Source of the DNA: Dysgonomonadaceae bacterium zrk40
GTDB taxonomy: Bacteria; Bacteroidota; Bacteroidia; Bacteroidales; Dysgonomonadaceae
DNA: 64,000 nt
NCBI GenBank assembly: GCA_016916535.1
Contig: CP070276.1
Location: 992,001-1,056,000 of the forward strand
Direction: 5' to 3'
Positions 22,399 through 39,228 of this stretch are shown here, in pieces. Within the stretch, counting starts at the first letter, position 1; every line of letters starts with the position of its first letter. Both the position numbers and the translations under genes were made by a program. Below the pieces are notes generated by a model that was given only the letters and a program-made list of their open reading frames with translations, did no database searches and was not told the DNA's origin.

Positions 22399-22414
22399 AT
22401 GCAATCGATTGCAT
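22399..22414. promoter_or_regulatory. LacI-family operator upstream of susC
   Basis: ATGCAATCGATTGCAT is a perfect 16-bp palindrome with the central CG typical of LacI-family sites (compare MalR/CcpA-type GCAANCGNTTGC). Its centre is 61.5 bp upstream of the first base of the -7 element, the same distance as for the site before the MFS gene. The likely binder is the LacI-family protein encoded at 39238-40245. Confidence 0.72.
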
Positions 22415-22467
22415 AGTCAATACAGGTTAATTATGCCTGTTTCGGTACCGTAACCCCTGAGAACCGA

Positions 22468-22475
22468 TAACTTTG
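22468..22475 (+). promoter_or_regulatory. -7 element of the susCDEF promoter
   Basis: TAACTTTG fits TAnnTTTG. The expected -33 position (19 bp upstream) reads GTAC rather than TTTG, a weak promoter that would suit activation by the regulator bound upstream. Confidence 0.5.
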
Positions 22476-22589
22476 TATGGAGAGAACAGAAGATGTACGG
22501 ATGAAAAATTAACCATTCATCTGTCAATTTTGTTATATATTTCGAGAATGAAGAGAGTATTAATCAGTTAATCTTATAACGTTAACAAC

Positions 22590-25500
22590 ATGTATCTAAA
22601 ATTCAAAAAAAGTAGGAAAGCATTCCTGATGACTATCTTGTCGGGATTGCTGATGATTTTATCAGCCAATGCCCAAACCGGTACGCAGATAAATGTAAGT
22701 GGATCGGTTACGGACGTAAACGGTGAACCACTCATCGGGGTAAACATCCTGGTGGAGGGAACCTCTACGGGTACGGTGACCGACTACGACGGCAACTTCC
22801 AGTTGCGGGTACCCGCAGATGCAGTCCTGAACATCAGCTACATCGGCTATCGTCCGCAACAGATCGCCGTAAACAACAGTACAACCATTCAGATTGTACT
22901 TGTTGAAGACACCGAGCTGCTGGATGAACTGGTGGTAATCGGTTATGGTACTGTACGCAAGGATGATGCTACCGGATCGGTGGTGGCTGTCGATGCCACC
23001 AAACTGAACCGCGGTCTGGCCACCTCGCCTTCAGATCTGCTGGCCGGACAGGTTGCCGGTCTGAGCGTGGTCTCAGCCGGTGGTGCACCTGGATCCTCCT
23101 CGAGCATCCGCATTCGTGGCGGCTCCTCTATGTCGGCCAGCAACGACCCGCTGATCGTGATTGACGGCGTACCGGTGGACAACGCCACCGGCGTGAGCGG
23201 TATGGCCAACCCGTTGAGTACCATCAACTCGAACGACATCGAGACCTTCACCGTATTAAAGGATGCTTCCGCAACTGCCATCTACGGGTCGCGTGCTTCC
23301 AACGGTGTAATCATCATCACCACCAAGAAAGGTAAATCGGGAAAGTTACAAATGGCTTACAACGGCAATTTCTCCGTCAGCACCCGCACCGGCGCGGTGG
23401 ATGTGATGGATGCACCCACCTTCCGCAACTACGTGGTCAACTCCTTCGGCGCTGACAGCCAACAGGCTGCAGCCCTTGGCAACAGTGAAACAAACTGGCA
23501 GGATCAGATCTTCCGTACCGCTGTCAGCACTGACCACAACATCAGCCTCTCCGGGAGTGCGGGCGAGAAACTGCCTTACCGCATTTCACTGGGTTACACC
23601 AACGAAAACGGTATCCTGAAAACATCCAACCTGGAAAGATACACCGGTAGCATAAACCTCTCCCCCAGCTTCCTCGACGGACAACTGAGGGTGCAGCTCA
23701 ACGCTCGCGGGATGTACAACACCAACCGTTTCGCCGACCAGGGAGCCATCAACTCGGCCACCCAGTTTGATCCCACCATGCCGGTGTATGACACCACCGG
23801 ATCACCTTACGGCAATGGCTACCATATGACGCTTAAAGCAGATGGTACCCCCATCGACATCGCACTGGCAAACCCACTCGCCATCCTGATGCAGAGACAA
23901 GACAACTCGAAGGTGATGCGCAGCATCGGTAACATGCAGGTGGACTACAACATGCCCTTCCTTGATGGACTGAGAGCCAATCTGAACGTTGGTTACGACA
24001 TCTCCGACAGCAATGGTGATGTGATGGTGGAAGACAATTCACCCATGAGCTACACCTGGGGCAGCTACAAATCCGGTTGGGGTGAAAACAGCACCTACAG
24101 CCAGTACAAGTTAAACACCTTGTTGGACTTCTACCTCAACTACGTGAAGGAAGCAGGTGCACATCGCTTCGATGCGATGGGTGGATACTCATGGCAACGC
24201 TTTTACAATGAAACAGAGAACTTTTACCCCTACTCAGCTGCCATGGCTGCTGAAACGGGCAATGAATTCTACAGGGAAGGCAATGATTACTCCACCGAGA
24301 GTTACGTGATCTCTTTCTTCGGACGTCTGAACTACTCGCTGCTGGATCGCTACCTGCTCACCCTCACACTGCGTAACGACGGCTCGTCGCGTTTCAGTCC
24401 CGATAACAAGTGGGGTCTCTTCCCCTCTGCTGCCTTTGCATGGAAGATCATCAACGAACCCTTCATGGCTGACAGCGATGCAATGTCGGACCTCAAACTG
24501 CGACTGGGATACGGTGTGACAGGACAACAGAACCTGGGAAGCGGCGACTATCCCTGGATGGGCCGTTACAGCTACAGCCAGGCTGGTGCCAACTACTTCT
24601 TCGGAGACCAGATGATCCCGTTGATCCGCCCGCTGGCTTACGATGAGAACCTGAAGTGGGAGGAGACCACCACCTACAATGCCGGTCTCGACTATGGCTT
24701 CCTGAACAATCGTATCACCGGTGCCTTCGATGTGTACTACCGCAAGACCACCGACCTGCTTAACACCGTCGGGATTGCTGCCGGTACCAACTTCAGCAAC
24801 CAGCTTCTCACCAACGTAGGCGAACTGGAGAACAAGGGTATCGAGTTCACCATCACCGGTCGTCCCATTGTCAGCAAGGACTGGAACTGGAACCTGAGCT
24901 ACAACGTAACCCTCAACCAGAACAGGATCACCAAGCTGACCATCAACGACGACCCCAGCTACGTGGGTGTTCGTTTTGGCGGCATAGACGGAGGTACTGG
25001 TAACAACATTGCCATTCACGCCGTGAACTATCCGGCAGGCTCCTTCTATGTGTACGAACAGGTATACGACGAAGCAGGCAAACCGCTGGAGGGTGTCTTC
25101 GTAGATCAAAACGCAGACGGCTCCATCAACGAACAGGATATGATCCCCTGGAAGAATGCATCTCCCGATCTCTACATGGGCTTGTCCTCACAACTCTCTT
25201 ACAAGAACTGGGACTTCAACTTCTCAGTACGTGGCAACATCGGCAACTACGCCTACAACAACATCCAGTCGAACCGTGAGTCGAAAAATACCACCTTCGA
25301 CCCCTCGGGATGGCTCAAGAACAGGGTTAACAGTGCCACCTACACCAACTTCGATGCAGTGCACTATCAATCCAGCTACTACATTCAGGATGCTTCGTTC
25401 ATGAAGGTAGACAATGTCTCCCTGGGGTACAACTTCACACACCTGCTGAACCACCAGCAGACGGGAAGGATCCACTTCACCGTTCAGAATCCATTGGTAG

Positions 25501-25607
25501 TGACCAATTACAGCGGTCTCGACCCTGAGTTCACCAACAACGGTATCGACAACAACATTTATCCACACCCCCGCGTCTTTATCCTGGGACTCAATCTTAA
25601 TTTTTAA
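22590..25607 (+). CDS. susC: SusC-type TonB-dependent maltooligosaccharide receptor
   Basis: A 1005-residue outer-membrane receptor. Signal peptide ends near Ala28 (ILSANAQ). Residues about 35-105 form the carboxypeptidase-regulatory-like domain (VSGSVTDVNGEPLIGVNILVEGT region), the TonB box is at about 112-120 (DELVVIGYG), the plug follows (SDLLAGQVAGL, SSIRIRGGSSM, IDGVPVDN), and the rest is beta barrel ending LGLNLNF. Starch as substrate is inferred from the downstream susD, susE/F and GH13 genes. It heads the operon, with a LacI-type operator upstream. Its base composition is clearly richer in G+C than the IS element nearby. Confidence 0.95.
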   Translation: MYLKFKKSRKAFLMTILSGLLMILSANAQTGTQINVSGSVTDVNGEPLIGVNILVEGTSTGTVTDYDGNFQLRVPADAVLNISYIGYRPQQIAVNNSTTIQIVLVEDTELLDELVVIGYGTVRKDDATGSVVAVDATKLNRGLATSPSDLLAGQVAGLSVVSAGGAPGSSSSIRIRGGSSMSASNDPLIVIDGVPVDNATGVSGMANPLSTINSNDIETFTVLKDASATAIYGSRASNGVIIITTKKGKSGKLQMAYNGNFSVSTRTGAVDVMDAPTFRNYVVNSFGADSQQAAALGNSETNWQDQIFRTAVSTDHNISLSGSAGEKLPYRISLGYTNENGILKTSNLERYTGSINLSPSFLDGQLRVQLNARGMYNTNRFADQGAINSATQFDPTMPVYDTTGSPYGNGYHMTLKADGTPIDIALANPLAILMQRQDNSKVMRSIGNMQVDYNMPFLDGLRANLNVGYDISDSNGDVMVEDNSPMSYTWGSYKSGWGENSTYSQYKLNTLLDFYLNYVKEAGAHRFDAMGGYSWQRFYNETENFYPYSAAMAAETGNEFYREGNDYSTESYVISFFGRLNYSLLDRYLLTLTLRNDGSSRFSPDNKWGLFPSAAFAWKIINEPFMADSDAMSDLKLRLGYGVTGQQNLGSGDYPWMGRYSYSQAGANYFFGDQMIPLIRPLAYDENLKWEETTTYNAGLDYGFLNNRITGAFDVYYRKTTDLLNTVGIAAGTNFSNQLLTNVGELENKGIEFTITGRPIVSKDWNWNLSYNVTLNQNRITKLTINDDPSYVGVRFGGIDGGTGNNIAIHAVNYPAGSFYVYEQVYDEAGKPLEGVFVDQNADGSINEQDMIPWKNASPDLYMGLSSQLSYKNWDFNFSVRGNIGNYAYNNIQSNRESKNTTFDPSGWLKNRVNSATYTNFDAVHYQSSYYIQDASFMKVDNVSLGYNFTHLLNHQQTGRIHFTVQNPLVVTNYSGLDPEFTNNGIDNNIYPHPRVFILGLNLNF

Positions 25608-25619
25608 CATCAGACAATT

Positions 25620-27263
25620 ATGAAGACAGTAACATATAAAATACTAACATTCATCGCGATCATCCTGATGACCGGGGGGCTGGCCTCCTGTGTCGATGAT
25701 CTGAATACCATTCCGCTGGATGAGGAGGAACTGGTCTCGGAAGTGGTCTTCGGCAGTGAGTTGGGGTCCTACCAGGAACTGCTGGCCAAGATATACGCCG
25801 GTTTGGCCGTCAGCGGCAACAGCGGCGGCGACGGCGACCCCGATGTGGCAGGTGTGGATGGCGGCAGCCAGGCATCCTTCCTCAGAGGACTCTGGAACCT
25901 TCAACAGCTACCCACCGACGAAGCACTTTGTGCATGGAACGACGTGGGTATCCCCGACCTGAACTACATCACCTGGACCTCCAGCAACGTGTTCATCAAG
26001 GGCTTCTACTATCGTCTCTACTACCAGATCAACCTTGCCAATGCCCTTCTCAGGGAGACATCTGAAGAGAAACTCTCCTCCCGTGGTGTGAGCCAGGCAG
26101 ATCAGGATAAGATCAAGGCCTTCCGTGCGGAAGCACGCTTCCACAGGGCACTCGCCTACTACTACCTGCTCGACATGTTCCGCAATGTGCCCTTCGTAAA
26201 CGAAGAGAGCCCGGTGGGCAGCACACTGCCCCCCCAGATCATGGCAGCCGACCTGTTCGACTACATTGAAAAGGAACTTACTGAATGCGAGTCCGATATG
26301 CTGGATCCGTTCGTCGGTTACAATGCAACCAACTATGGCAGGGCACACAAAGCCGCCAACTGGGCGCTCCTTTCCCGTCTCTACCTCAATGCAGAAACAT
26401 ATATCGGTGTGAAAAAATATACCGAGAGCATCACCAACAGCAAAAAGGTGATGGCTGTGAACTACCAGCTTGATCCTGTCTATGTAAACATCTTCAAGGC
26501 TGACAACCACAACTCACCTGAGATGATCTTTCCTGTACGTTATGATGGTTCAGACACACAAACATGGGGCGGGATGACCTTCCTGCTGAGTGCGATGGAA
26601 CCCTCCGACCTGCAGGCCGAAGTGAATGCAGTGGGTGCCTGGCAGGGCAACCGTGCCACCAAGGCGATCCTCCATACCTTCGAACGGGAGTACCAACACG
26701 AAATGGACAGCCGTTTCTCGATGATACGCATCGACTTCACTGAGAATGTGGAGATCATAGACCCCTCGCTCTTCACCAACAACGGCATCCCCGTGGTGAA
26801 GTACTCCAACCGCAACAGCGACGGCACACTGCCCCCGAGCAACATCGCCTATACCGACTTCCCGCTCTTCCGCCTGGGTGAGATCTACCTCAACTATGCC
26901 GAGGCGGTACTCAGGGGGGGCACCGGTGGTGATGCAGCCACAGCGTTGCAACTCATGAACAACCTGCGCCAGCGTGGTTACAACGGCAGCAGCACTGCGA
27001 CCCTTACCGCAGGTGAACTGACACTCGATTACATCCTGGACGAAAGGGGACGTGAGTTCTTTTATGAGGGACAGCGCCGTACCGACCTGATACGTTTTGG
27101 CAAACTCACCGGATCATCTTATCTATGGCCCTGGAAAGGCAACGTGCCAGAAGGACGTTCGGTAGACGATTACTTCAATGTCTACCCTATTCCGGCAGAC
27201 GACCTGGGAGCCAACGAGAACCTGGTGCAAAACAGCGGATACGAATCTAGTAACGCCAATTAA
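25620..27263 (+). CDS. susD: SusD-family starch-binding lipoprotein
   Basis: A 547-residue lipoprotein with lipobox GLASC (Cys24). SusD features: EARFHRALAYYYLLDMFRNVPFV in the TPR-like helices, FPLFRLGEIYLNYAEAVLRGG, and the C-terminal family phrase DERGREFFYEGQRRTDLIRFGK. Length and the positions of these blocks resemble the starch SusD of Bacteroides thetaiotaomicron, which binds helical maltooligosaccharides at the cell surface and closes the SusC barrel. It starts 12 bp after susC and ends 14 bp before the SusE-like gene. Confidence 0.93.
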   Translation: MKTVTYKILTFIAIILMTGGLASCVDDLNTIPLDEEELVSEVVFGSELGSYQELLAKIYAGLAVSGNSGGDGDPDVAGVDGGSQASFLRGLWNLQQLPTDEALCAWNDVGIPDLNYITWTSSNVFIKGFYYRLYYQINLANALLRETSEEKLSSRGVSQADQDKIKAFRAEARFHRALAYYYLLDMFRNVPFVNEESPVGSTLPPQIMAADLFDYIEKELTECESDMLDPFVGYNATNYGRAHKAANWALLSRLYLNAETYIGVKKYTESITNSKKVMAVNYQLDPVYVNIFKADNHNSPEMIFPVRYDGSDTQTWGGMTFLLSAMEPSDLQAEVNAVGAWQGNRATKAILHTFEREYQHEMDSRFSMIRIDFTENVEIIDPSLFTNNGIPVVKYSNRNSDGTLPPSNIAYTDFPLFRLGEIYLNYAEAVLRGGTGGDAATALQLMNNLRQRGYNGSSTATLTAGELTLDYILDERGREFFYEGQRRTDLIRFGKLTGSSYLWPWKGNVPEGRSVDDYFNVYPIPADDLGANENLVQNSGYESSNAN

Positions 27264-27277: not shown

Positions 27278-28420
27278 ATGAAAAATATCATTCATATATT
27301 AGCAATACTGGCCGGTATCACACTGTTCTGGTCCTGCCAGGAAGATGAGAAAGTGGTTCTTCAGCAACCGGAGAGCTTTGTGCTCAACACGCCGAAATAT
27401 GCTTCTGCCATCTATGACCTGAAGAATACCGAATCGATTGAGTTCACAACCTCTCAACCCGATTACGGCTTCACCGCTGCCGCCATCTATAGCGTGCAGG
27501 TAGCGTTGACCTCCGACTTTACAAATCCGGTGACGCTACCCGGCAGCTACACCACTGCAAAGTTTGCCATCAACGCAGCCGACCTTGCACTGGCACTTGT
27601 CGGGATGCATGGAGTGACCCTCGAAGAGGATTATCCCACCGATCCCCATCCCCTTTATGTGCGGCTGATCTCTAAGCTCAACGCAAAGAATGCTGGGGAG
27701 GTCTTCTCCAATGTGATCACCCTCCCACAGGTGAAGGGTTACTTTGCCCTCGACCCGATGGTGATGCCGGAAGAGATGTTTATCATCGGCAACGTGGCCG
27801 GCAACTGGAGCTGGGATGGTGCTACCGCGATGGTTCCCGTTTGGGGCTCTCCCGGCAAGTTCTGGGCGATGCAGTACCTGGGACAGACCGGTGACGGCGG
27901 CAATGCAGAGATCAAGTTCAATTTTGCCAAGGCATGGGATGGCAACGAGTTCGGCTACGGACAGGCAACAGTAAATGCCAATGGCACTGCTGATCCGGGA
28001 GCATCTGACTCCGGTGGCAACATCGGTATTGGCAATCCGGGATGGTACATCGTGGTGGTGACCACCGCCATCAATGGCCGTGACTATGAATTTGCCGTGG
28101 ACTTCTATCCGCCGCATCTACACCTGCAGGGAAATGTTGCTTCCGGCAACTGGGGCACCACCGATGAAGCATATCGCTTTACGGTTCCGGCCCTCTCGCT
28201 GGGTGCCGATGCAGCCTTTGTTTCACCACCCTTCACCAACACTGGTGAGATACGTGCCAGCATCCAGCTGCCCGGTCACGAGTGGTGGCACACCGAATTT
28301 ATCGTCTTAGACGGTGTATTCGCACCCCGCGGTGCAGGTGATGACCAGGAGCGTGTAACCGGCAATGCAGGTCAGAAGCTTCACATTAACTTCACCACCA
28401 ATACAGGTAAGGTTGAATAA
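27278..28420 (+). CDS. susE: SusE-like starch-binding surface lipoprotein
   Basis: 380 residues with signal peptide and lipid-attachment Cys20 (LFWSC). The N-terminal domain (about 25-150) is the SusE/F immunoglobulin-like module, and two beta-sandwich units follow. The first starts MFIIGNVAGNWSWDGATAMVPV (about 165 onward); the second starts LHLQGNVASGNWGTTDEA. The motif G-N-x-x-x-x-W at each unit start, with Trp-rich patches such as GHEWWHTEF, is as in starch-binding SusE/SusF modules. It would hold starch near the SusCD complex. A hairpin without a U-run separates it from the next gene. Confidence 0.82.
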   Translation: MKNIIHILAILAGITLFWSCQEDEKVVLQQPESFVLNTPKYASAIYDLKNTESIEFTTSQPDYGFTAAAIYSVQVALTSDFTNPVTLPGSYTTAKFAINAADLALALVGMHGVTLEEDYPTDPHPLYVRLISKLNAKNAGEVFSNVITLPQVKGYFALDPMVMPEEMFIIGNVAGNWSWDGATAMVPVWGSPGKFWAMQYLGQTGDGGNAEIKFNFAKAWDGNEFGYGQATVNANGTADPGASDSGGNIGIGNPGWYIVVVTTAINGRDYEFAVDFYPPHLHLQGNVASGNWGTTDEAYRFTVPALSLGADAAFVSPPFTNTGEIRASIQLPGHEWWHTEFIVLDGVFAPRGAGDDQERVTGNAGQKLHINFTTNTGKVE

Positions 28421-28432
28421 ACAGGCAGAACC

Positions 28433-28464
28433 GGAAAACCTCTTTCAACAGAGGGAGGTTTTCC
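28433..28464 (+). other. Intra-operon hairpin between the susE- and susF-like genes
   Basis: A perfect 10-bp stem, GGAAAACCTC (28433-28442) with GAGGTTTTCC (28455-28464), in the 62-bp gap. ATAAAAATA follows instead of a U-run, so it is more likely an mRNA stability or partial termination element than a full terminator. Confidence 0.55.
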
Positions 28465-28482
28465 ATAAAAATATTACACAAG

Positions 28483-29910
28483 ATGAATAAAATAAAATAC
28501 CTTTTTGCCACACTGCTTGCAATCACACTGTTGAATGCATGTGAGGATGTGTACGAACATGTGGCAGCCCCACCACAGGCCTATGAACAGGAAACGGAAC
28601 AGAGTGTAAGCGGCTTCAATTTTGCCCTGGGTGCTGGTGTATCTGCGCCGATTGTCTTCACTGAAGAGATGCTGGCAGATGAGACGCCACTGGAAGCCAT
28701 CAAGACAACTGCTACGCCCCAGCTTGCTGAGGGTGTGACAATGACCTTCATTCTGGAGGCATCCGATACAGAAGATTTCGCCCAGGTGGTGGAACTCACC
28801 TCTGTAAGTGACCAGAACAGTGCCTATGTTACGGCGGCCACGCTCAACGAAGCAGCCAAAAGCCTATACGGGAAAGCACCCGAAGCGAGAGACCTCTACC
28901 TGCGTGCAGCCTCTTTCATCAATGAGGGCAGCAGCACGGTAAGGGTTCCGGGCAATGTGGTACTGGGACCGGTGACCATTACCCCCGTGGGACCGGTGAT
29001 CGAGACCGAGTATTATCTGATTGGCGACATCAACGGATGGAACATCGAGAATCTGGACGCATTCAAATTCAACCACAGCGGCAATGATGTCTACGAAGAT
29101 CCCATCTTCACCATCCTGGTGAACAATGTGACAGGTTATTTCAAGATTGTACCCAAGTCGAGCAAAGATGCCGCCTCCTGGGATGGCGTACTCGGCAATC
29201 CTGTTGACGGTAACACTGCGCTGGAAGGGGATATCATCCTGGATGGAGCACAGGCGATGCGCGTCACTGAACCGGGATGGGTGAAAATCACCCTCAACAT
29301 GATGGAATACACCTACACCATCGAGATCATCGGTGAGATGAACCTGACACTCTATGTGCCCGGTGGTCACCAGGGATGGGATCCGGCAAACGCCCCCACC
29401 CTCTACAGCAGCAACTTCGACTTTAAATATAGCGGTTATGTTTACTTTGCCGATGGCAACACCGAGTTCAAGTTCACTTCACAACCAAACTGGGACGGAC
29501 CCAACTACGGTGATGGGGGCAATGGCACCCTCTCAGACGATGGCGGTGCCGGTAACCTGGTGGTGAGCGAAGCCGGTATGTACAAGATTGATGTAGACCT
29601 CACCGCGAACAGTTACACACTGACCAAAACGGAATGGGGACTTATTGGTGACGCTACTGATGGTAGTTGGGACAACTCCACACCGATGAGCTACGATCCT
29701 GTAACCGGTCTCTGGAGCGTGACCACAACCCTGAAAGATGGCACCTTCAAGTTCAGGGCCAACAACGCGTGGGACATCAACCTGGGAGGTGATCTGAACA
29801 ACCTCAGTTATGGTGGTGACAATATCCAAGCCACTGCCGGCACCTACACCATTACACTCGATCTCTCCGATCCGGAAGCTTTTAAGGCGACTGTGGTGAG
29901 TGCTGTATAA
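28483..29910 (+). CDS. susF: SusF-like starch-binding surface lipoprotein
   Basis: 475 residues, lipobox LLNAC (Cys20). After an N-terminal SusE/F-type module (about 25-165) there are three repeated carbohydrate-binding units: one starting YYLIGDINGWNIEN (about 180), one at LTLYVPGGHQGWDPANAP (about 288), and one at WGLIGDATDGSWDNSTPM (about 387). Each opens with a strand plus a Trp and later has F-K-F (EFKFTS, TFKFRAN), as in SusF. Three units, against two in the preceding SusE-like protein, parallels SusE and SusF of Bacteroides. A strong terminator follows. Confidence 0.84.
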   Translation: MNKIKYLFATLLAITLLNACEDVYEHVAAPPQAYEQETEQSVSGFNFALGAGVSAPIVFTEEMLADETPLEAIKTTATPQLAEGVTMTFILEASDTEDFAQVVELTSVSDQNSAYVTAATLNEAAKSLYGKAPEARDLYLRAASFINEGSSTVRVPGNVVLGPVTITPVGPVIETEYYLIGDINGWNIENLDAFKFNHSGNDVYEDPIFTILVNNVTGYFKIVPKSSKDAASWDGVLGNPVDGNTALEGDIILDGAQAMRVTEPGWVKITLNMMEYTYTIEIIGEMNLTLYVPGGHQGWDPANAPTLYSSNFDFKYSGYVYFADGNTEFKFTSQPNWDGPNYGDGGNGTLSDDGGAGNLVVSEAGMYKIDVDLTANSYTLTKTEWGLIGDATDGSWDNSTPMSYDPVTGLWSVTTTLKDGTFKFRANNAWDINLGGDLNNLSYGGDNIQATAGTYTITLDLSDPEAFKATVVSAV

Positions 29911-29972: not shown

Positions 29973-31004
29973 ATGAAAAGCTTTTACACCCTGATTCTCT
30001 CATCACTACTACTGCTCTCCTGCAGCCGTACCACCGAAGAGGTTAAAACCGATTCCACTTTCGCAAAAGGAGCCGATATCAGTTGGCTTCCACAAATGGA
30101 GGCGAGTGGTTACATCTTCCGCAACGACAAAGGAGAAGCGGAGGATTGTTTTAAGATCTTGAAAGATCACGGCATCAACGCCATCCGCCTACGCACCTGG
30201 GTCAACCCTTCAGACGATCCGCACAGCGGCCACTGCAGCACCGAAGAGACGGTTGAGATGGCCAAGCGTGCAAAGGAATGGGGCATGCGGGTGATGATCA
30301 ACTTCCACTACAGCGACAGCTGGGCCGATCCGGGAAAACAACACAAGCCAAAAGCCTGGGAGGGGATGACGTTCGATGAACTGAAAAATACCCTTTATGA
30401 TTACACGCAGGGTGTGATGAACGCCCTGAAGGAAGCGGGTGTGAGCCCGGAATGGGTGCAAATTGGCAACGAGATTCCCTCCGGTATGATCCACCCTGAA
30501 GGTCATACCGACAACTGGCCACAGCTGGTGCAGCTGATCAACCGGGGCTACGACGCCGTCAAGGAGGTGAGTCCCACCAGCAAGGTGATCCTGCACGTGG
30601 ACCAGGGCAACAACAACGATCGTTTCCGCTGGTGGTTCGACAATGCCACCCAACTGGGTGCAAAGTATGATGTGATTGGCATGTCATTCTATCCCTACTG
30701 GTTGGAAAGTAAGCCCGATTACAGCGAGGTGATCGATGACCTTGGAAACAACCTGCAGGACATGACCTCCCGCTACGGCAAGGAGGTGATGGTAGTGGAA
30801 GTAGGGGGTGTTGACGTGCTGCCTGACAACACCTATGAGATGCTGCGCGCGGTGATCAACAAAGTGAAACAAGTCCCTTCTGAAAAGGGCCTCGGCGTCT
30901 TTTACTGGGAACCGCAGGGTGCTCGTACCTGGAGCCATTATGCACTGAGTGCCTGGGGTGATGACGGACGTCCCACCAAAGCGATGGATGCTTTCATCAA
31001 TTGA
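29973..31004 (+). CDS. GH53 arabinogalactan endo-beta-1,4-galactanase, lipoprotein
   Basis: 343 residues, lipid-attachment Cys17 (LLLSC), so probably membrane-anchored and possibly surface exposed. The GH53 (beta/alpha)8 fold is clear: FAKGADISWLPQMEASG, INAIRLRTWVNP, MINFHYSDSWADPGKQHKP, acid/base Glu167 in VQIGNEIPSG, and nucleophile Glu276 in VVEVGG. GH53 enzymes cut beta-1,4-galactan, the side chain of pectic rhamnogalacturonan I. This does not fit a pure starch locus. It follows the susF terminator by 25 bp; no clear own promoter is visible apart from TATCTTTT at the terminator's end. Confidence 0.92.
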   Translation: MKSFYTLILSSLLLLSCSRTTEEVKTDSTFAKGADISWLPQMEASGYIFRNDKGEAEDCFKILKDHGINAIRLRTWVNPSDDPHSGHCSTEETVEMAKRAKEWGMRVMINFHYSDSWADPGKQHKPKAWEGMTFDELKNTLYDYTQGVMNALKEAGVSPEWVQIGNEIPSGMIHPEGHTDNWPQLVQLINRGYDAVKEVSPTSKVILHVDQGNNNDRFRWWFDNATQLGAKYDVIGMSFYPYWLESKPDYSEVIDDLGNNLQDMTSRYGKEVMVVEVGGVDVLPDNTYEMLRAVINKVKQVPSEKGLGVFYWEPQGARTWSHYALSAWGDDGRPTKAMDAFIN

Positions 31005-31170: not shown

Positions 31171-33003
31171 ATGAAAAAACATATCCTTCTTATTGTACTA
31201 TTCTCTGTGTCGATCTTCATGGTACGCGGTGAGACACCCCGCGTGGAACCCTCCTTCTGGTGGAGCGGCATGGCGGAAACCGATCTGCAACTGATGGTGA
31301 GCGGTGACAACATCGCCGACTACGTTCCTGAAGTCACTTCAAAACATGTCACCATCAGGGAAGTGGTGACGTTGCAGAACCGTAATTACCTGCTGATTTA
31401 CCTCGATCTCACCGAAGCTGTTCCGGAGACCTTCGACCTGGTCTTCACCAACGGCAAGAAAAAGATCAACGTACCCTATGAGCTGAAGGAACGCAACCCG
31501 GAACGGTTGTCGATCGAGAGCTTTGGCCCGTCGGATGTGCTCTACCTGATCATGCCCGACCGCTTTGCCAACGGCGATCCCACGAACGACCAGATACCGA
31601 TGCGCACCGAATATAAGGTGGATCGCAACAATCCCAACGCCCGCCATGGCGGCGATCTCAAGGGGATCTCCGACCGCCTGGGATACCTCTACGACCTGGG
31701 AGTCACCGCCATCTGGCTCAACCCGGTGCTGGAGAATGACATGGAGGGTGGCTCCTACCACGGTTACGCCACCACCGACTACTACCGGGTGGATCCCCGC
31801 TTCGGTAGCAACGAGGAATACCGTCAGCTGATCAGCAACGCCCATGAGAAAGGGATGAAGGTGGTGATGGACATGATCTTCAACCATTGCGGCAGCGACC
31901 ACCCCTGGCTGACAGAGGTGCCCTCACCCGACTGGTTCAACAACCTGGAGGAGTATGTGCAAACCTCTCATATGAAAGAGATGTACTTCGACCCCTATGC
32001 ATCGGAGTATGACAAGAGCAAGATGGTGGATGGTTGGTTCGTACCCACCATGCCCGACCTGAACCAACGTAACCGCCATGTGGCGAAGTACCTTATCCAG
32101 AACAGCATCTGGTGGATCGAGTACTCCGGTGTGGATGGCATCCGACAGGATACCTATCCCTATGCCGACTATGAGATGATGGTCGACTGGCTCATGGCGG
32201 TGGAAAAGGAGTACCCCGACTACAACATCGTGGCGGAGGCATGGCTCAATAACCCCATTGGCACCGCTTTCTGGCAGGGCAACAGTCCCCTCAACCCCAA
32301 CAACACCCATCTCAAATCGGTGATGGACTTCCGCTTCATGGGGCTATCGCACAGTGCTTTCTTCGAAGAGACCACCGAGTGGAACGGGGGACTGCACGGC
32401 ATCTACGACCACATGACCTACGACTTTATCTATCCCGATATCTACAACGTGTTGCGCTTCCTCGACAACCACGACACCGACCGTTTCCTGAAGGAGTACC
32501 CGCAGGAGCTCTCCGGTTGGAAACAGGCGGTCACCTTCCTGCTCACCATGCCCGGCACACCGCAAATCTACTACGGCACGGAACTGTTGATGCATGGCAA
32601 CAAAAGCAGGCATGATGGTTATGTCCGGCTTGATGTGCCCGGTGGTTGGCCCGGTGATGAAGTGGATCACTTCACCCGTACGGGACGCGATGCAATTCAG
32701 AACGAGGCGTTCGACTACCTCAGCAAGTTGCTCCACTGGCGGCAGGACAATGAGGTGATCGCCCGTGGTGGCATGAAACATTACGTGCTGCAGAAGGGGG
32801 TCTACCTCTACGAGCGCTTCCTGGGTGATGACAAAGTACTCGTTTTCATGAACGGAACATCGGGCGAAGTGACAGTAAACCTTGACCGTTATGCAGAGTC
32901 TATACAAGGGATGAGCAGTGCCAGGGATTTTCTTTCGGGCAAAACCATCACCCTGGGTGAGACGCTGACGCTTTCTCCCAAGGAGGTACTGTTGCTGCAA
33001 TAA
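31171..33003 (+). CDS. susA: SusA-like neopullulanase/cyclomaltodextrinase (GH13)
   Basis: A 610-residue periplasmic alpha-amylase family enzyme. The signal peptide ends around residue 20 without a lipobox. An N-terminal beta domain (about 22-115, beginning PRVEPSFWWSGM) as in cyclomaltodextrinases precedes the (beta/alpha)8 barrel (LYLIMPDRFANGDP, VVMDMIFNHCG). Catalytic residues: Asp327 in GIRQDTYPY, Glu356 in VAEAWL, Asp435 in LDNHDTDR. The C-terminal beta domain ends at a typical PKEVLLLQ. Length and the Gln before the nucleophile Asp match SusA, which breaks imported maltooligosaccharides in the periplasm. The next gene starts 39 bp later. Confidence 0.9.
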   Translation: MKKHILLIVLFSVSIFMVRGETPRVEPSFWWSGMAETDLQLMVSGDNIADYVPEVTSKHVTIREVVTLQNRNYLLIYLDLTEAVPETFDLVFTNGKKKINVPYELKERNPERLSIESFGPSDVLYLIMPDRFANGDPTNDQIPMRTEYKVDRNNPNARHGGDLKGISDRLGYLYDLGVTAIWLNPVLENDMEGGSYHGYATTDYYRVDPRFGSNEEYRQLISNAHEKGMKVVMDMIFNHCGSDHPWLTEVPSPDWFNNLEEYVQTSHMKEMYFDPYASEYDKSKMVDGWFVPTMPDLNQRNRHVAKYLIQNSIWWIEYSGVDGIRQDTYPYADYEMMVDWLMAVEKEYPDYNIVAEAWLNNPIGTAFWQGNSPLNPNNTHLKSVMDFRFMGLSHSAFFEETTEWNGGLHGIYDHMTYDFIYPDIYNVLRFLDNHDTDRFLKEYPQELSGWKQAVTFLLTMPGTPQIYYGTELLMHGNKSRHDGYVRLDVPGGWPGDEVDHFTRTGRDAIQNEAFDYLSKLLHWRQDNEVIARGGMKHYVLQKGVYLYERFLGDDKVLVFMNGTSGEVTVNLDRYAESIQGMSSARDFLSGKTITLGETLTLSPKEVLLLQ

Positions 33004-33042
33004 GCAACGATGATTGCATAATACATAACAAACCATTTTCAA

Positions 33043-35445
33043 ATGAAATATCCAGCTAAAAGCTTTTTCTATCTGTTGTTGCTCCTCTTCGCCCTCTCCT
33101 GCGGTGAGGATCCGGTGGTGACGCCGGAACCCCAACCGGAACCGGAGCCGGAACAACCGGGTCCCGAGGAACCTGCTCCATTATCTGACTGGTTCTCCTG
33201 GGAACCTGCTGCCGCCGATGCCGACAAGGAGTTGACCATACGATTCAAAGCTCCCAACAAAGAATCGGGATTATTCAACTACACCGGTGAGGTCTATGCC
33301 CATATTGGTGTGGTGAGTGAGGGCACCTGGAAGTATGTGCCGGCAGAATGGAAAGAGAACATTGCGAAATGCAGGATGCAGAAGATAGAGGGCGAGGCAA
33401 ATGCATGGGAGCTCAAGCTCACCCCCACCATCCGCGAATGGTTTGGCTCCGGCGAGACACCGGTCAACAAGATCGGTATTGTGGTCAGAAGTGCCGATAG
33501 CGAAAAGAAAGGCAACAAGGATGGCAATGATTTCTTTATTGAAAACATCACCGACAGCAAGTACAAGCCATTTCAGCCGGGAGCGGTGAAGAGTGGCACC
33601 ATGACCGCCGGGCTGCAACATGGCATCAACATCGTTGACAACAGCACCGTGACACTGATGCTCTATGACAAGGACAAGTATGGCGCACGGAAGGATTTCG
33701 CCCATGTGGTGGGCGACTTCAACAACTGGACGCTGAGCAACGACGAGCAGTCGCAGATGTTCCGCGACGATGCTGCCGGCTGCTGGTGGATTACCCTCAC
33801 GGGGCTTGACCCCGCGAAAGAGTATGCCTTCCAGTATTACCTGGGCAACACGGGGCAGGATGCCATCCGCGTGGCCGACCCCTATGCCCGTAAGGTACTG
33901 GATCCAAACAACGACACATATATCTCTGCCTCCACCTATCCGGAGAACATGACTTACCCGGAGGGAGCCATAGGGATCGTTTCTGTTTTCAGGATTCAAC
34001 AAGAAACATTTAACTGGCAGGTACCCCAATTCGAGAGACCGTCACGAGACAACCTGGTGATCTATGAGATGCTGCTGCGTGATTTCACGGAAAGTAGTGA
34101 TATCAATGGAGCGATGGCGAAGCTGGATTACCTGCAGTCGCTCGGCGTGAATGCCATTGAGCTGATGCCGGTGCAGGAGTTCGACGGCAACGACAGCTGG
34201 GGCTACAACCCCGCCTTCTTCTTTGCCATGGACAAGGCTTACGGCACCGACAGGATGTACAAGGAGTTTATCGATGAGTGTCACAGCAGAGGTATCGCAG
34301 TGATCCTCGACGTGGTCTACAACCACGCCACAGGCGCCAACCCTTTTGCCAGGATGTGGTGGGATGCGAATCATAAGAATCCTGGAACGGGTCAAATAGA
34401 ACCTACTACTGCGCCTAATAATCCCTATTTTAACGCAGATGCACCGCACCCCTACAGCGTCTTCCATGACTTCAACCATGAGTCTGACCTGGTGCGTACC
34501 TTCGTGAAGCGCAACCTGCAGTTCCTGCTGGAGGAGTACAACATCGACGGCTTCCGGTTCGACCTCACCAAGGGATTTACCCAACGTTCTTCAACCGAGT
34601 CAACCGCAAGCAATTATGATGCTTCCCGCATTGCGATCCTAAAAGATTACAACCAAGCCATCAAGGCGGTCGATCCGGAGGCCTGGGTGATCCTGGAGCA
34701 TTTTGCCGACGACAGGGAGGAGACCGAGCTCTCTAACGATGGCATGATGGTGTGGCGCAATCGCAATCACGTCTACTCACAGGCTGCAATGGGCTGGAAG
34801 AGTGAATCAGATTTCAGGGGAGTCTATAACCACACATCGGCGCGCCCCGTAAACAGCCTGGTAAGCTACATGGAGAGCCACGACGAAGAACGGGCCGCCT
34901 ACAAACAGGCACAGTACGGCAACGGGATCCTGAAGACAAGCCTCGATGCACAGATGTCACAACTGGGCGTCAATGCCGCCTTCTTCTTCACCGTACCGGG
35001 ACCGAAAATGGTGTGGCAGTTCGGAGAGATGGGATATGATGTATCGATTGATGAAAATGGCCGTACCGGTCGCAAACCGTTGAGGTGGGAATACCTGACG
35101 GTGACTGAGCGAAAGGAGCTGCATGACACCTATGCAACACTTATCGGGCTAAGGCGCGATCATCCCGAGCTGTTTAACTCCACCGCTACGCTCAATTGGC
35201 AGGTGACTGACACCTTCTGGGAGCAGGGCCGTTTCCTTACCCTTTCCTCGTTTGGAAACAGCAAGCAAATCGTTGTTGTGGGCAACTTCACCAATGAATC
35301 GATCAATGCGGCGACAACCTTTCCGCAACTGGGAGACTGGTACAATTATCTCAACCCGACGGAGGTGACCACAGTTCACTCAAAACCCATGACGATCTCC
35401 GTGCCGGCCAACAGTTTCCGGATCTTCAGTAATTTTCCGGAATAG
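33043..35445 (+). CDS. Large GH13 alpha-amylase/pullulanase-type lipoprotein
   Basis: 800 residues. Lipobox ALSC (Cys20) is followed by a Pro/Glu-rich surface linker (about 25-46). A beta-sandwich module comes next (WEPAAADADKELTIRF, about 50-170), then a CBM48-like module (FAHVVGDFNNWTLS, about 225 on), then the catalytic barrel from about 340 (VIYEMLLRDFTES). Catalytic residues: Asp507 in FRFDLTKGF, Glu552 in VILEHFADD, Asp614 in MESHDEERAAY. The arrangement of CBM48 plus a barrel with YNPAFFFAMDKAYGT is that of glycogen-debranching and pullulanase relatives, not of the SusG amylase. It is probably the surface enzyme that opens starch for SusC import. Debranching versus endo-amylase action cannot be settled here. 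Confidence 0.88.
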   Translation: MKYPAKSFFYLLLLLFALSCGEDPVVTPEPQPEPEPEQPGPEEPAPLSDWFSWEPAAADADKELTIRFKAPNKESGLFNYTGEVYAHIGVVSEGTWKYVPAEWKENIAKCRMQKIEGEANAWELKLTPTIREWFGSGETPVNKIGIVVRSADSEKKGNKDGNDFFIENITDSKYKPFQPGAVKSGTMTAGLQHGINIVDNSTVTLMLYDKDKYGARKDFAHVVGDFNNWTLSNDEQSQMFRDDAAGCWWITLTGLDPAKEYAFQYYLGNTGQDAIRVADPYARKVLDPNNDTYISASTYPENMTYPEGAIGIVSVFRIQQETFNWQVPQFERPSRDNLVIYEMLLRDFTESSDINGAMAKLDYLQSLGVNAIELMPVQEFDGNDSWGYNPAFFFAMDKAYGTDRMYKEFIDECHSRGIAVILDVVYNHATGANPFARMWWDANHKNPGTGQIEPTTAPNNPYFNADAPHPYSVFHDFNHESDLVRTFVKRNLQFLLEEYNIDGFRFDLTKGFTQRSSTESTASNYDASRIAILKDYNQAIKAVDPEAWVILEHFADDREETELSNDGMMVWRNRNHVYSQAAMGWKSESDFRGVYNHTSARPVNSLVSYMESHDEERAAYKQAQYGNGILKTSLDAQMSQLGVNAAFFFTVPGPKMVWQFGEMGYDVSIDENGRTGRKPLRWEYLTVTERKELHDTYATLIGLRRDHPELFNSTATLNWQVTDTFWEQGRFLTLSSFGNSKQIVVVGNFTNESINAATTFPQLGDWYNYLNPTEVTTVHSKPMTISVPANSFRIFSNFPE

Positions 35446-35473
35446 AGTTTCGACTGTTTCTATTGAACGTTTG

Positions 35474-35513
35474 AAAAGAGGGAGTAACCGACTCGGTCAC
35501 TCCCTCTTTTTTT
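35474..35513 (+). terminator. Terminator after the GH13 lipoprotein gene
   Basis: A 12-bp stem (AAAAGAGGGAGT at 35474-35485, ACTCCCTCTTTT at 35499-35510) with a 13-nt loop and a T run, 29 bp after the stop. Confidence 0.85.
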
Positions 35514-35592
35514 CGGATAAAAAGCGGATAGAATAAACATATTCCATCATTCCGGTGTTTAGAGTGGTAATCACAGTAACGACAACATCAAA

Positions 35593-36099
35593 ATGAAATC
35601 TATCGCAATTATTTACGGTTCCAGCACCGAGAACACCAAAAGAGCCGCTGAGAAGATCGCGGAAGTGATGGCAGCATACAGCCCCACCCTGGTCGATATC
35701 TACGACGGGGACGAACAACCCTTCCTCACACACGATGTGCTGATCATGGGGGTCTCCACCTGGGGAGTACAGGATTTGCAAGACGACTGGAACGACTTTT
35801 ACCCGAAGCTGGAGAAGCTGGACCTCTCCGGTAAGACCGTGGCCATTTTTGGCATGGGCGATGCCTCCATCTACCCAAGTTCATTCGTGGATGCCATCGG
35901 CATCCTCTATGAGATCGTGAAAGAAAAAGGAGCAACTGTCGTGGGACAGGTATCCCCCGAAGGGTATGACTTCGAATATTCACGTGCGTTGGTGGACGAC
36001 ATGTTCGTGGGGCTTCCGCTCGACGATGACACCGAACCTGAGCTAACTGATGAACGAATTGCAGCCTGGGTGGAACAACTGAATCCCTATCTGCAATAA
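35593..36099 (+). CDS. Flavodoxin
   Basis: A 168-residue long-chain flavodoxin, a soluble FMN electron carrier. The FMN phosphate loop IIYGSSTENTKRAAEKIAE is at the N-terminus. The aromatic loop STWGVQDLQDDWNDFYPKLEKLDLSGKTVAIFGMGD is characteristic, as is the VDAIGILYEIVKEKGATVVGQ region of long-chain members. It is a single gene between two terminators and lies in the middle of the starch locus, although no redox function there is obvious; chance placement is possible. Partners such as pyruvate:flavodoxin oxidoreductase are not in the window. Confidence 0.93.
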   Translation: MKSIAIIYGSSTENTKRAAEKIAEVMAAYSPTLVDIYDGDEQPFLTHDVLIMGVSTWGVQDLQDDWNDFYPKLEKLDLSGKTVAIFGMGDASIYPSSFVDAIGILYEIVKEKGATVVGQVSPEGYDFEYSRALVDDMFVGLPLDDDTEPELTDERIAAWVEQLNPYLQ

Positions 36100-36106
36100 A
36101 CTGCAT

Positions 36107-36143
36107 AAAAAAATCCCGGTCAATAGTTGCCCGGGATTTTTTT
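36107..36143. terminator. Bidirectional terminator between flavodoxin and GH13 genes
   Basis: AAAAAAATCCCGG (36107-36119) pairs with CCGGGATTTTTTT (36131-36143). A-rich on one side and T-rich on the other, it can end transcription from both convergent genes. Confidence 0.85.
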
Positions 36144-36174
36144 ATACCTGATTGCGATGTTATAGGCTACAGGA

Positions 36175-37530
36175 TCACTTGTAGTAAATCCTGTACTCCC
36201 ACGGTTGCAACTGCATTGTTGCTGCAGCCGTTGTTTCCTCACCACTGGGAAAGAGTCGGTATCCCTCACCCGGCAGGGGCTCTTCGAAGGTTACCTCAAC
36301 CGTTTCGTCGCTTAGGTTGAGCAATGCGACCACCTCGCTGCCTTCGTTCGTGCGACGGAAAGACCATACCGATTTCGGACGATCATTTCCGATCTCGCTC
36401 ATCACACCACTGCGGCCGGGCGCCTGCAACGCCTTCTGTTCCTTCTTGAAACGATTCAATGCGGTGTAGAAAGAGGAGAAGTCCTGCGGATCACTCCAGT
36501 CGATCTCATCTTTCTCGAAAAATGCCAGTCTGTGGTCGAAACCTGCTTCCTGTCCGCTGTATATCAGCGGCATGCCGGGCAGCAGATAGGTGAGCACCGC
36601 AAAGCTGCGTGCCGCCTCACCCATTCGTTCAAACTCGGTACCGTTCCAGGAGTTCTCGTCGTGGTTGGAGGTGAAGAACATCGGAATGGCATCCGGAGCA
36701 AAACGATCGGTCATACGGTTAAACGATGCCCGCAATGAGTCCACATCCTCCACACCCTGAGCCACCGCATTCATTCGGTGGTGGAAATCCCATGCATAGT
36801 ATGCGTCGAACAGCGATTCATTCAACTCAGGCTTCTCCGCCTCGGCAAGCATAAAGATATCGGGCTTCAAGGCGATTAGTGAATCTTTTGCCGCCACCCA
36901 GAAGTCGGTCGGCAGTTCACCTGCCACATCGCAGCGGAAGCCGTCGATACCGGTTTCACGCACCCAGAAGCGCATCGACTCGATCATCGCCTCACGCATC
37001 TCCGGCTTGCTGTAATCGAGCTGGGCAATATCGGTCCAGTCATACATCACGTTCAGCTCACCCAGGCTGTCGCGCACGTACCAGTCGGGATGAGCCTCCA
37101 CCCACACGGCATCGCGAGAGGTATGGTTGGCCACCCAATCGAGAATCACCTTCATACCCAGTGCGTGTGCCTGATCGACCACCGCCCGGAAATCATCCAA
37201 CGTGCCAAACTCACTGTTCACCGCTGTGTAATCGCTGATGGAGTAGTAGCTCCCCAGGGTACCTTTTCGATCTTTTTCACCGATCGGCTGAATGGGCATA
37301 AACCAGAGGATATCGACTCCCAGTTCATCGAGACGGGGCAGCTCATCTGCAAAAGCGGGGAATGTCCCTTCGGGAGTAAACTGTCGCGTGTTGACCTCAT
37401 AGAGTACCGCGTCATAAGCCCATTCGGGGCGTTCAGGTTCAGCTGTGGCAAAAGGTTCAGCTTGTTTGGTCTTGTTTCCGCATGCCATCAGAAGGGTGAT
37501 GAGCAGGGTGTAAAGTAGAAATCTTTTCAT
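36175..37530 (-). CDS. GH13 alpha-amylase family lipoprotein
   Basis: 451 residues with lipobox LMAC (Cys17), no N-terminal carbohydrate module, and a compact barrel starting DAVLYEVNTRQFTPEGTF. Catalytic residues: Asp201 in GFRCDVAGELP, Glu230 in LAEAEKP, Asp291 in SNHDENSW. The C-terminal beta domain ends WEYRIYYK. The Cys before the nucleophile Asp and the small size resemble amylases next to maltose transporters in Bacteroidota. It lies 13 bp downstream of the MFS gene on the same strand, so the two are cotranscribed from the LacI-controlled promoter at 39153. Substrate is presumably maltodextrin. Confidence 0.9.
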   Translation of the reverse strand: MKRFLLYTLLITLLMACGNKTKQAEPFATAEPERPEWAYDAVLYEVNTRQFTPEGTFPAFADELPRLDELGVDILWFMPIQPIGEKDRKGTLGSYYSISDYTAVNSEFGTLDDFRAVVDQAHALGMKVILDWVANHTSRDAVWVEAHPDWYVRDSLGELNVMYDWTDIAQLDYSKPEMREAMIESMRFWVRETGIDGFRCDVAGELPTDFWVAAKDSLIALKPDIFMLAEAEKPELNESLFDAYYAWDFHHRMNAVAQGVEDVDSLRASFNRMTDRFAPDAIPMFFTSNHDENSWNGTEFERMGEAARSFAVLTYLLPGMPLIYSGQEAGFDHRLAFFEKDEIDWSDPQDFSSFYTALNRFKKEQKALQAPGRSGVMSEIGNDRPKSVWSFRRTNEGSEVVALLNLSDETVEVTFEEPLPGEGYRLFPSGEETTAAATMQLQPWEYRIYYK

Positions 37531-37543
37531 TTTTTATGATAGG

Positions 37544-39076
37544 TCAGTTATTTTTCTGCAATTTGTAGACATCATCCTTGTCCTGTACCATGAAAACGCT
37601 CAGGGCACCCACTATCAGGGAACAGCCTGCGAGCACCAGCGTGAGGATCACCCGTCCCTCAAAGAGTTCACTGGTGATGTATCCCAGGATGCTGGCAGCG
37701 AGGATCTGCGGGATGACAATGAAGAAGTTGAAGATGCCCATGTAGGTACCCATCTTATCTGCCGGCAGTGAGCCGGTGAGGATGGCGTAGGGCATAGAGA
37801 GGATGCTCCCCCAGGCAAAGCCTACCCCCACCATGGGGAGCAGCAACAGCTGAGGGTCTCTGATAAAGAAGAGCGAGATGAAGGCTACCCCTCCCATGCT
37901 CAGAGCGATGGCATGAGTGGCTTTACGGCCAATCTGCTTAGCCAACGCCGGGAGCAGGAAAGCGCTAATGGCCGACACTCCGTTGTAGACGGCGAAGAGC
38001 ACTCCTACCCAGTTGGCTCCCTGGTTGTAGAGCTCGCTGCTGGAATCGGTAGTACCATAGACGTGCTGCGTGATAGCCGGTGTGGTATAGATCCACATGG
38101 CATAAAAAGCGAGCCAGGAGAAAAACTGAACCACCGCCAGCTGCCCCATGGTCTTGGGCATATGCAATAGATCATTCATGATCCCCACCATGCCGTTTGG
38201 CCTTGATGAACTTTTGGTGATCAACCCTGAGAGCAGCAGGATGATGCCGAAGACCAGCAACAACCCACCCACGATGTAGAGCTGCTCGTTTTGCTCCCCC
38301 AGGGAGGAGAAATAGATCAGCGCACTGGCGGCTACACCTACAAGGGTCCAGATTAGACCTTTGTGCAGAAACTGACCAGAGGTGACCGGTGCTTTCGGGA
38401 CACTCTTCACACCGCTCAGTTTCTCCTTCTCCTCCTCAAAGGCAGCCAGCTCTTCCGGCGAATACTCCTTCGAAGTGAGCACCGTATAGAGCACCGAGAG
38501 GAAGAGCACCACCCCGCCGATATAGAAGGAGAGCTTCACCGACTGGGGAATCATCCCCTCTTCTGCCGTGTTGGGCACGCCGAACCAGTTGGACAGGATG
38601 TAGGGGAGCGCCGAAGCTACCACTGCACCGGTACCGATGAAGAAGCTCTGCATGGCAAAACCCATCGTACGCTGTTCGGAAGGAAGATTGTCACCCACGA
38701 AAGCACGGAATGGTTCCATCGAAATGTTGATTGATCCATCCATGATCCAGAGCATCCCTGCAGCAATCCAAAGGGCCGGGGAGTTGGGCATGATGAAGAG
38801 TGCCAGGGTGGTCAGGAGGGCCCCCACCATGAAGTAAGGGCGTCGCCGTCCGAAACGGTTCCAGGTGTTGTCGCTCAAATGTCCGATGATGGGCTGAATG
38901 ATCAGGCCGGTGATGGGTGCAGCAATCCAGAGAATGGGAATATCCTCTACGCGGGCTCCCAGTGTCTCAAAAATGCGGCTTACGTTGGCATTCTGGAGGG
39001 CGAAGCCAAACTGAATGCCCAGGAATCCGAAACTCATGTTCCAGATCTCCCAAAAGGAAAGGTGTCTCTTTTTCAT
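37544..39076 (-). CDS. MFS sugar transporter of the GPH/SLC45-like type
   Basis: 510 residues, about 12 membrane helices. The start at 39076 gives the family N-terminus LSFWEIWNMSFGFLGIQFGF followed by ALQNANVSRIFETLGA, seen in Bacteroidota proteins next to amylase genes. An in-frame ATG at 39136 lies within the operator region and is rejected. Other features: WNRFGRRRPYFMVGA after helix 2, an acidic cytoplasmic loop with YSPEELAAFEEEKEKLSG between helices 6 and 7, and a second half starting about residue 300. It would carry maltose or maltodextrin into the cytoplasm by proton symport (inferred from the amylase and LacI neighbours). Confidence 0.88.
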   Translation of the reverse strand: MKKRHLSFWEIWNMSFGFLGIQFGFALQNANVSRIFETLGARVEDIPILWIAAPITGLIIQPIIGHLSDNTWNRFGRRRPYFMVGALLTTLALFIMPNSPALWIAAGMLWIMDGSINISMEPFRAFVGDNLPSEQRTMGFAMQSFFIGTGAVVASALPYILSNWFGVPNTAEEGMIPQSVKLSFYIGGVVLFLSVLYTVLTSKEYSPEELAAFEEEKEKLSGVKSVPKAPVTSGQFLHKGLIWTLVGVAASALIYFSSLGEQNEQLYIVGGLLLVFGIILLLSGLITKSSSRPNGMVGIMNDLLHMPKTMGQLAVVQFFSWLAFYAMWIYTTPAITQHVYGTTDSSSELYNQGANWVGVLFAVYNGVSAISAFLLPALAKQIGRKATHAIALSMGGVAFISLFFIRDPQLLLLPMVGVGFAWGSILSMPYAILTGSLPADKMGTYMGIFNFFIVIPQILAASILGYITSELFEGRVILTLVLAGCSLIVGALSVFMVQDKDDVYKLQKNN

Positions 39077-39133
39077 GTGGATGATGCTATTTGATCTCTG
39101 CTGATTTAGATAAACGAAAAGGTTGAAATGATT

Positions 39134-39143
39134 CAAACGTTTA
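39134..39143. promoter_or_regulatory. Degenerate LacI-type half-operator at the MFS promoter start
   Basis: The palindromic core AAACGTTT (39135-39142) lies just downstream of the -7 element, where the transcript would begin. Its centre is 83 bp, about eight helical turns, from the upstream operator at 39215. It could be a second site for the same regulator. Confidence 0.4.
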
Positions 39144-39152
39144 TGGAATAGG

Positions 39153-39160
39153 CAAATATA
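39153..39160 (-). promoter_or_regulatory. -7 element of the MFS-amylase promoter
   Basis: On the minus strand TATATTTG fits TAnnTTTG, 77 bp before the MFS start. No TTTG is present at the -33 position, as at the susC promoter. Confidence 0.5.
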
Positions 39161-39214
39161 AAGAGTAATCCCGGTCGGGGCGACTCTCTCTGCAGTAAAC
39201 CGTTGCTATTTCTA

Positions 39215-39228
39215 TGCAAACGTATGCA
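39215..39228. promoter_or_regulatory. LacI-family operator upstream of the MFS gene
   Basis: TGCAAACGTATGCA is a 14-bp near-palindrome (one mismatched pair) with central CG. It shares TGCAA and TGCA arms with the site before susC. The centre is 61.5 bp from the first base of the -7 element. It sits 10 bp after the stop codon of the LacI-family gene. Confidence 0.68.

Follow-up and report, generated by a model that had tools for sequence, protein, structure and literature searches.

In Bacteroides thetaiotaomicron, the sus system for starch is controlled by SusR, an activator of susC and the starch genes (PMC3878776). LacI-family carbohydrate regulators are also known from the same order, namely KdgR, UxaR, UxmR and UxuR of Bacteroides (PMC3878776, PMC4052901); these serve uronate pathways. 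A LacI-family starch regulon is not among the Bacteroides regulators in the available portions of these two sources, which give SusR for starch, and a term search of PMC12596196 found no LacI. Here we describe a 64,000-nucleotide stretch of the genome of Dysgonomonadaceae bacterium zrk40 (contig CP070276.1, positions 992,001 to 1,056,000; hereafter the window), in which one palindrome lies before a susC operon and a similar one before an MFS sugar transporter gene, close to a gene for a LacI-family protein. SusR is a membrane protein with a periplasmic sensor and a direct-repeat site, whereas the regulator of the window shows LacI-family domains alone and is paired with a palindromic site. Judged from sequence comparison, this protein is probably a class-I-type activator of alpha-glucan loci, a reading whose positive sign of control we infer and to which we give a probability of about 0.73.

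Spacing between operator and -7 element

A sequence-only reading of the window had proposed two LacI-type operators at an identical 61.5-bp distance from two -7 elements without a TTTG at the -33 place. By direct reading, the susC-side palindrome is centred at 22406.5, with TAACTTTG beginning at 22468; the MFS-side 14-mer is centred at 39221.5 and TATATTTG starts at 39160 on the minus strand. Both distances are exactly 61.5 bp, and no TTTG was found 18–22 nt upstream of the -7 element at either promoter. The MFS-side site, read on the minus strand, is an imperfect palindrome with six of seven pairs matching. Both 14-mer cores end 54 bp upstream of the -7 element and thus do not overlap the core promoter or start region. 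The whole genome (G000, 3.47 Mb, 3 contigs) has three occurrences of the pattern TGCAnnCGnnTGCA, two of which are the window sites. TAnnTTTG occurs 36 times on both strands of the window, from which the chance of meeting it at one preset distance and strand is approximately 3 in 10,000. Two sites alone could still coincide and are only suggestive; its conservation in relatives shows the spacing to be constrained.

The genus of the window groups with Proteiniphilum, Petrimonas and Fermentimonas as named relatives, Proteiniphilum being a member of the Dysgonomonadaceae. Orthologues of the window LacI, with 70–96% identity, were present in 27 other same-genus genomes (28 of 37 including its own, one of them, L028, being a partial match). 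On the susC arm, the spacing was exactly 61.5 bp in all 21 same-genus susC loci whose sequence reaches the promoter; 22 matches had been taken as loci, one of which (L046) ends before the promoter, and further same-genus matches were left out. The spacing was still 61.5 bp in two genomes (G008 and G036) whose SusC is ~33% and whose SusD is ~26–33% identical to that of the window. On the MFS arm, 20 of the 28 same-genus lacI loci (L001–L028) have the 14-mer with TAnnTTTG at 61.5–63.5 bp. The site is also present in L014 and L015, with TATATTTA at 61.5 bp. In L024 (genome G004) the operator lies 31.5 bp from TATATTTG, as if ~30 bp were missing, and 62.5 bp from a one-off TATTTTTA; the 31.5-bp position resembles that of class II activators and looks like a natural spacing variant. 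No MFS-arm site was found in the remaining five loci (L018–L021 and L027), and two of these, L019 and L021, have only ~50 and ~20 bp, respectively, between lacI and the start of the MFS gene.

For the order as a whole, sites of the form [CT]GCAhhCGddTGC[AG] were counted around related lacI and susC genes of Bacteroidales, leaving out loci that had been fetched by the pattern itself. Of 120 distinct sites, 99 had TAnnTTTG at 59.5–64.5 bp on one side or both, and in 22 it stood on both sides (for example 61.5/61.5 in L171 and 62.5/62.5 in L150). The resulting 121 arms were distributed as 68 at 61.5 bp, 31 at 62.5, nine at 63.5, nine at 59.5, three at 64.5 and one at 60.5, against a mean of 0.31 and a maximum of 3 per bp at the other distances between 10.5 and 149.5 bp. 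When similar sequences were down-weighted, 71.6 effective arms remained, with 38.4 at 61.5 bp and 23.2 at 62.5 bp. Strict sites were found in 56 of 80 named lacI loci, 49 of them with a site at 59.5–64.5 bp. The distance from the -7 element to the assigned start codon varied from 11 to 263 bp (843 bp in one arm), and the upstream spacing was constant. That the two window promoters share their geometry by chance or by common ancestry is scarcely credible, since downstream distance and gene type vary across families and the spacing stays, as the histogram attests. By this comparison, many Bacteroidales have a fixed operator-to--7 geometry of ~61.5 bp, and the conservation in close relatives that the sequence-only reading had named as its check was borne out (21/21 susC loci, 20/28 MFS arms, 99/120 sites).

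In 40 regions around paralogous LacI genes, one of 46 generic CG-centred palindromes, most of which may not be operators, lay at 61.5 bp from TAnnTTTG, and a general feature of the LacI genes in these genomes was accordingly rejected. Outside Bacteroidales the rule has hardly any support. Fifteen of 29 loci from the wider phylum have a site matching at least 11 of the 14 consensus bases, and two of these have the geometry: L288 (64.5 bp) and L264 (61.5/62.5 bp), the latter itself from the same order as the window.

A few loci show other arrangements. Most LacI-family regulators repress, and an ordinary steric repressor whose upstream position is incidental would account for the lacI promoters of L094, L130 and L131. 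There the operator lies at 25.5 bp, so that the TTTG within the 14-mer falls 20 nt before the -7 element, the normal -33 place; it could then double as the -33 box, which the bound protein would occlude, and this geometry may reflect auto-repression. Five wider-phylum loci (L268, L271, L276, L279 and L289), with a site within ~30 bp of the lacI start, would fit the same explanation. At the susC, MFS and GH promoters, however, the operator does not reach the core promoter and yet keeps a fixed distance, and the spacing histogram speaks against steric repression, which we consider highly improbable as the general mode. A variant site in Marinifilaceae, CGCAAACGTTTGAT, lies 73.5–74.5 bp from the susC-side -7 element in all eight loci where it was found, an outward step of 11–13 bp, or roughly one turn; of these eight, three also have a -7 element at 60.5–61.5 bp on the lacI side.

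The -33 box and the sign of control

The -33 place (spacer 18–22) was compared between the 121 operator-linked arms and 236 control -7 elements from the same loci. TTG was present in 13 arms and 66 controls, and TTTG in three arms and 25 controls; with similar sequences down-weighted, the fractions of arms with TTG and with TTTG were 0.11 and 0.04. A second comparison came from nine of the 28 lacI arms, all from Bacteroides or Bacteroidaceae records, in which a second -7 element follows ~61–66 bp further on. In these nine cases, which are related and not independent, TTG at spacer 18–22 was found in none of the operator-linked promoters and in eight of the second promoters, where it stood at spacer 19 or 20; widening the range to spacer 17–23 gave 1/9 versus 8/9, the single operator-linked case having its TTG at spacer 17. 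Operators shared between divergent -7 elements and a shortage of -33 boxes are both evident from the comparison.

A fixed distance points to contact with RNA polymerase and is compatible with either sign. The earlier reading had inferred a possible activator from fixed distance and weak core promoters together; the geometry fits, and the step from distance to sign does not follow, as GalR illustrates. At the E. coli gal operon, GalR bound at -60.5 represses P1 by contact and activates P2 from the same site (PMC4693257). Activation is favoured here because of the -33 depletion, the contrast with the second lacI promoters and the 22 two-sided palindromes.

The main rival is a repressor at the same fixed place that would block open-complex formation by contact, as GalR at OE does at gal P1, and would be released by maltodextrin. 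It belongs to the same family and would act from nearly the same position (GalR OE at -60.5), a fixed spacing would be expected as well (PMC4693257), and the usual ligand logic would suffice. Nevertheless, a neighbouring promoter of the same gene has the -33 box that is missing from the operator-linked one, and Cur-like sites among the 121 arms were in no excess over shuffles, so that the operator-linked promoters look too weak to need repression. The 22 operators equidistant from -7 elements on both sides would also be more usual for activators. We therefore regard contact repression as unlikely.

The LacI protein might instead compete with another activator that overlaps the operator and owns the spacing. 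Bacteroides polysaccharide loci are usually activated by SusR or HTCS (hybrid two-component system) regulators, and Cur activates several sugar genes (PMC3878776, PMC6989115). Across the arms, however, the conserved blocks were the palindrome with its flanks, the -7 element and a T-rich stretch common to the controls, and Cur-like sites were no commoner than in shuffles, which makes such competition improbable and also led us to reject co-activation by Cur. The T-rich block was likewise rejected as a special UP element, T at -38 having a frequency of 0.63 in arms and 0.45 in controls with a similar rise.

Several points weigh against activation or against its generality. The -33 difference arises mainly at spacer 20 (0.008 of arms versus 0.131 of controls), spacer 19 being alike (0.083 and 0.085), and the box is not universal among the controls themselves, as the 66/236 shows. 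Most LacI-family proteins release DNA on ligand binding (PMC4052901), and activation by starch would accordingly need the opposite ligand logic. GalR, as described above, shows that contact from such a position can repress. As to generality, 24 of the 80 named lacI loci lack a strict site and seven have the site without the spacing. Twenty-one of the 120 sites have no exact -7 element at 59.5–64.5 bp; several of these (e.g., L014, L015, L024, L152 and L164) have a one-mismatch element near that distance, which was not counted because one mismatch is common by chance. Beyond the genus, the spacing was absent from five of eight susC loci, the other three having 60.5 (with an imperfect site), 61.5 and 64.5 bp. 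The arms of L133 lacI and L150 GH53 are doubtful, since only 11 bp separate their -7 element from the assigned start codon.

Under the activation reading, the LacI-family protein would bind TGCAWWCGWTTGCA-type palindromes as a dimer and act on sigma-ABfr promoters whose TAnnTTTG begins 61.5 bp (59.5–64.5 bp) from the operator centre. Promoter elements of B. thetaiotaomicron are centred on -7 and -33 (PMC7366714); if TAnnTTTG is centred on -7 likewise, the operator would lie at about -72 from the transcription start. From there the regulator would touch RNA polymerase, probably at the alpha C-terminal domain, and this contact would make up for the missing -33 contact, amounting to class I activation. 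A maltodextrin-like ligand would presumably raise its activity, as is required for starch to switch the genes on.

The regulator and its alpha-glucan regulon

The protein encoded at 39238–40245 has the LacI/GalR domain set, with PF00356 at 45.8 bits (cut-off 27) and PF13377 at 122.4 bits. Its solved relatives are CcpA, PurR and LacI, the closest by sequence being CcpA (1rzr; 8.6e-69), and its NCBIfam ccpA score of 150.7 bits is far below the cut-off of 442.35. The Pfam scan of this protein returned LacI-family and weak helix-turn-helix matches and no membrane-bound periplasmic sensor. The predicted operator, a palindrome of the TGCAWWCGWTTGCA type with a central CG, is conserved and co-occurs with the lacI gene, in agreement with the LacI-type assignment made in the sequence-only reading. 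Of the 28 same-genus genomes with this LacI, 27 have the composite site, against two of the nine without it (Fisher 2.6e-5, uncorrected for relatedness); the genomes are related, so that such raw values overstate the association, a further point on the opposing side. So is the fact that eight of the nine genomes without LacI also lack a susC match at 1e-200, which has little bearing on the sign. Among the exceptions, G001 has the susC promoter and no LacI was found in its 460-contig assembly, and in G012 the site lies before a different LacI gene. The comparison nonetheless links the operators to this LacI group. A short stop-broken stretch in another same-genus genome (G006:C379:16801–16989), 48–61% identical to the window LacI, is perhaps the relic of a lost locus; that genome has neither the operator pattern nor susC.

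The first long frame 3' of the 121 arms encoded SusC in 49 cases, LacI in 28, MFS in 24, GH53 in six, GH13 in three and other proteins in ten, with none found in one. By Pfam, three of the ten others were GH77 with CBM20 (L151), GH57 (L162) and a protein with a lectin-like domain (L145), and a GH77 gene outside the unbiased set (L113) has the site at 61.5 bp. Most targets are thus alpha-glucan genes such as susC and MFS, together with lacI and GH53, and the site system occurs in records of Bacteroides, Paludibacter, Dysgonomonas, Mediterranea and the Proteiniphilum group. The Bacteroides loci include those of B. gallinarum (L148) and B. neonati (L135). In the window, the susC operon and the MFS–GH13 pair (Table 1) would form one alpha-glucan regulon, as the earlier reading had suggested and the comparison supports.

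Table 1. Predicted elements and genes of the starch locus (window positions)
Feature	Position	Strand	Basis
Putative LacI-type operator upstream of susC, the perfect palindrome ATGCAATCGATTGCAT with its 14-mer core at 22400–22413	22399–22414	.	Direct read; spacing kept in relatives
-7 element TAACTTTG of the susC promoter, without -33 TTTG	22468–22475	+	Direct read; spacing conserved
susC, SusC/RagA TonB-dependent transporter, first gene of the operon	22590–25607	+	
susD	25620–27263	+	PF07980
susE-like and susF-like genes	27278–29910	+	PF14292, PF16411
GH53-family gene within the starch locus	29973–31004	+	PF07745, 3.5e-108
Two GH13 genes: cyclomaltodextrinase type and second alpha-amylase-family protein	31171–35445	+	Pfam
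GH13 gene downstream of the MFS gene	36175–37530	-	Pfam
MFS sugar transporter gene, ATG at 39076	37544–39076	-	Pfam
-7 element TATATTTG of the MFS promoter	39153–39160	-	Direct read; conserved in relatives
Putative LacI-type operator upstream of the MFS gene, minus-strand sequence TGCATACGTTTGCA	39215–39228	.	Direct read; relatives
lacI-family gene for a 335-aa regulator, the proposed cognate binder	39238–40245	-	PF00356, PF13377; co-occurs with sites

The GH53 gene of the window, nominally for a beta-galactanase, lies inside the starch locus; in six Bacteroides-type loci (L136, L143, L148, L150, L154 and L160) a GH53 gene has its own operator at 63.5–64.5 bp. In some loci susC and susD look replaced by distant homologues, with SusC identities of ~33% in L108 and L112 and 47–53% in L109 and L110; the promoter spacing is kept there, and the neighbouring GH13, MFS and lacI genes are ~67–86% identical. 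The 37 bases that end the susC leader (window 22553–22589, GAGAGTATTAATCAGTTAATCTTATAACGTTAACAAC) are strongly alike across most same-genus loci and exceed the preceding region in similarity; they might act in translation or at the RNA level. An imperfect 37-nt inverted repeat (76%) with a T-run directly precedes the susC operator (window 22311–22398) and may terminate transcription of the gene upstream; the core of the repeat, TAACTAATTGATAATA, recurs slightly changed in many same-genus loci. On the other side of the locus, lacI and an arginine deiminase gene (41507–42778) are separated by a DDE transposase gene (PF13612; 40508–41419), which lies ~260 bp upstream of lacI. The insertion looks recent because the close relative L002 has no transposase there, its deiminase-type gene starting ~225 bp from lacI.

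Comparison with described regulators

No printed account of such a regulon was found in the full-text literature searched, which covered few subscription papers, no bioRxiv and no supplementary tables. The Bacteroidota paradigm for starch is the membrane activator SusR, and a LacI-family activator, if true, would represent a second mode of control. A recognisable 14-mer and one spacing would then make regulons readable from sequence and provide a simple handle on activator contact with sigma-ABfr RNA polymerase. Because the 25.5-bp and 61.5-bp geometries both occur in one clade, the question of LacI-family repression versus activation could be tested within it. We consider it somewhat better than an even chance that this Bacteroidales LacI clade is a dedicated class I alpha-glucan activator, switched on by its ligand, which serves divergent pairs from a shared operator by one distance rule and in some species represses itself by using the operator TTTG as the -33 box; it would be the cytoplasmic counterpart of SusR.

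CRP has a fold unrelated to that of the LacI family. The likeness to its class I sites lies in the fixed upstream distance, -61.5 (PMC4693257). CcpA and Cra/FruR are LacI-family proteins with some activation (ackA, PMC10766802; Cra, PMC4052901), but these are global dual regulators, whereas that of the window is a local alpha-glucan regulator known by comparison only. A further close parallel is GalR, a LacI-family dimer that contacts the alpha C-terminal domain from one upstream operator, OE at -60.5 of E. coli gal, and can activate P2 (PMC4693257). GalR acts on a single operon, where a second operator is present and its effects on two overlapping promoters are opposite, whereas the system described here has many promoters, one fixed distance and elements of the sigma-ABfr type.

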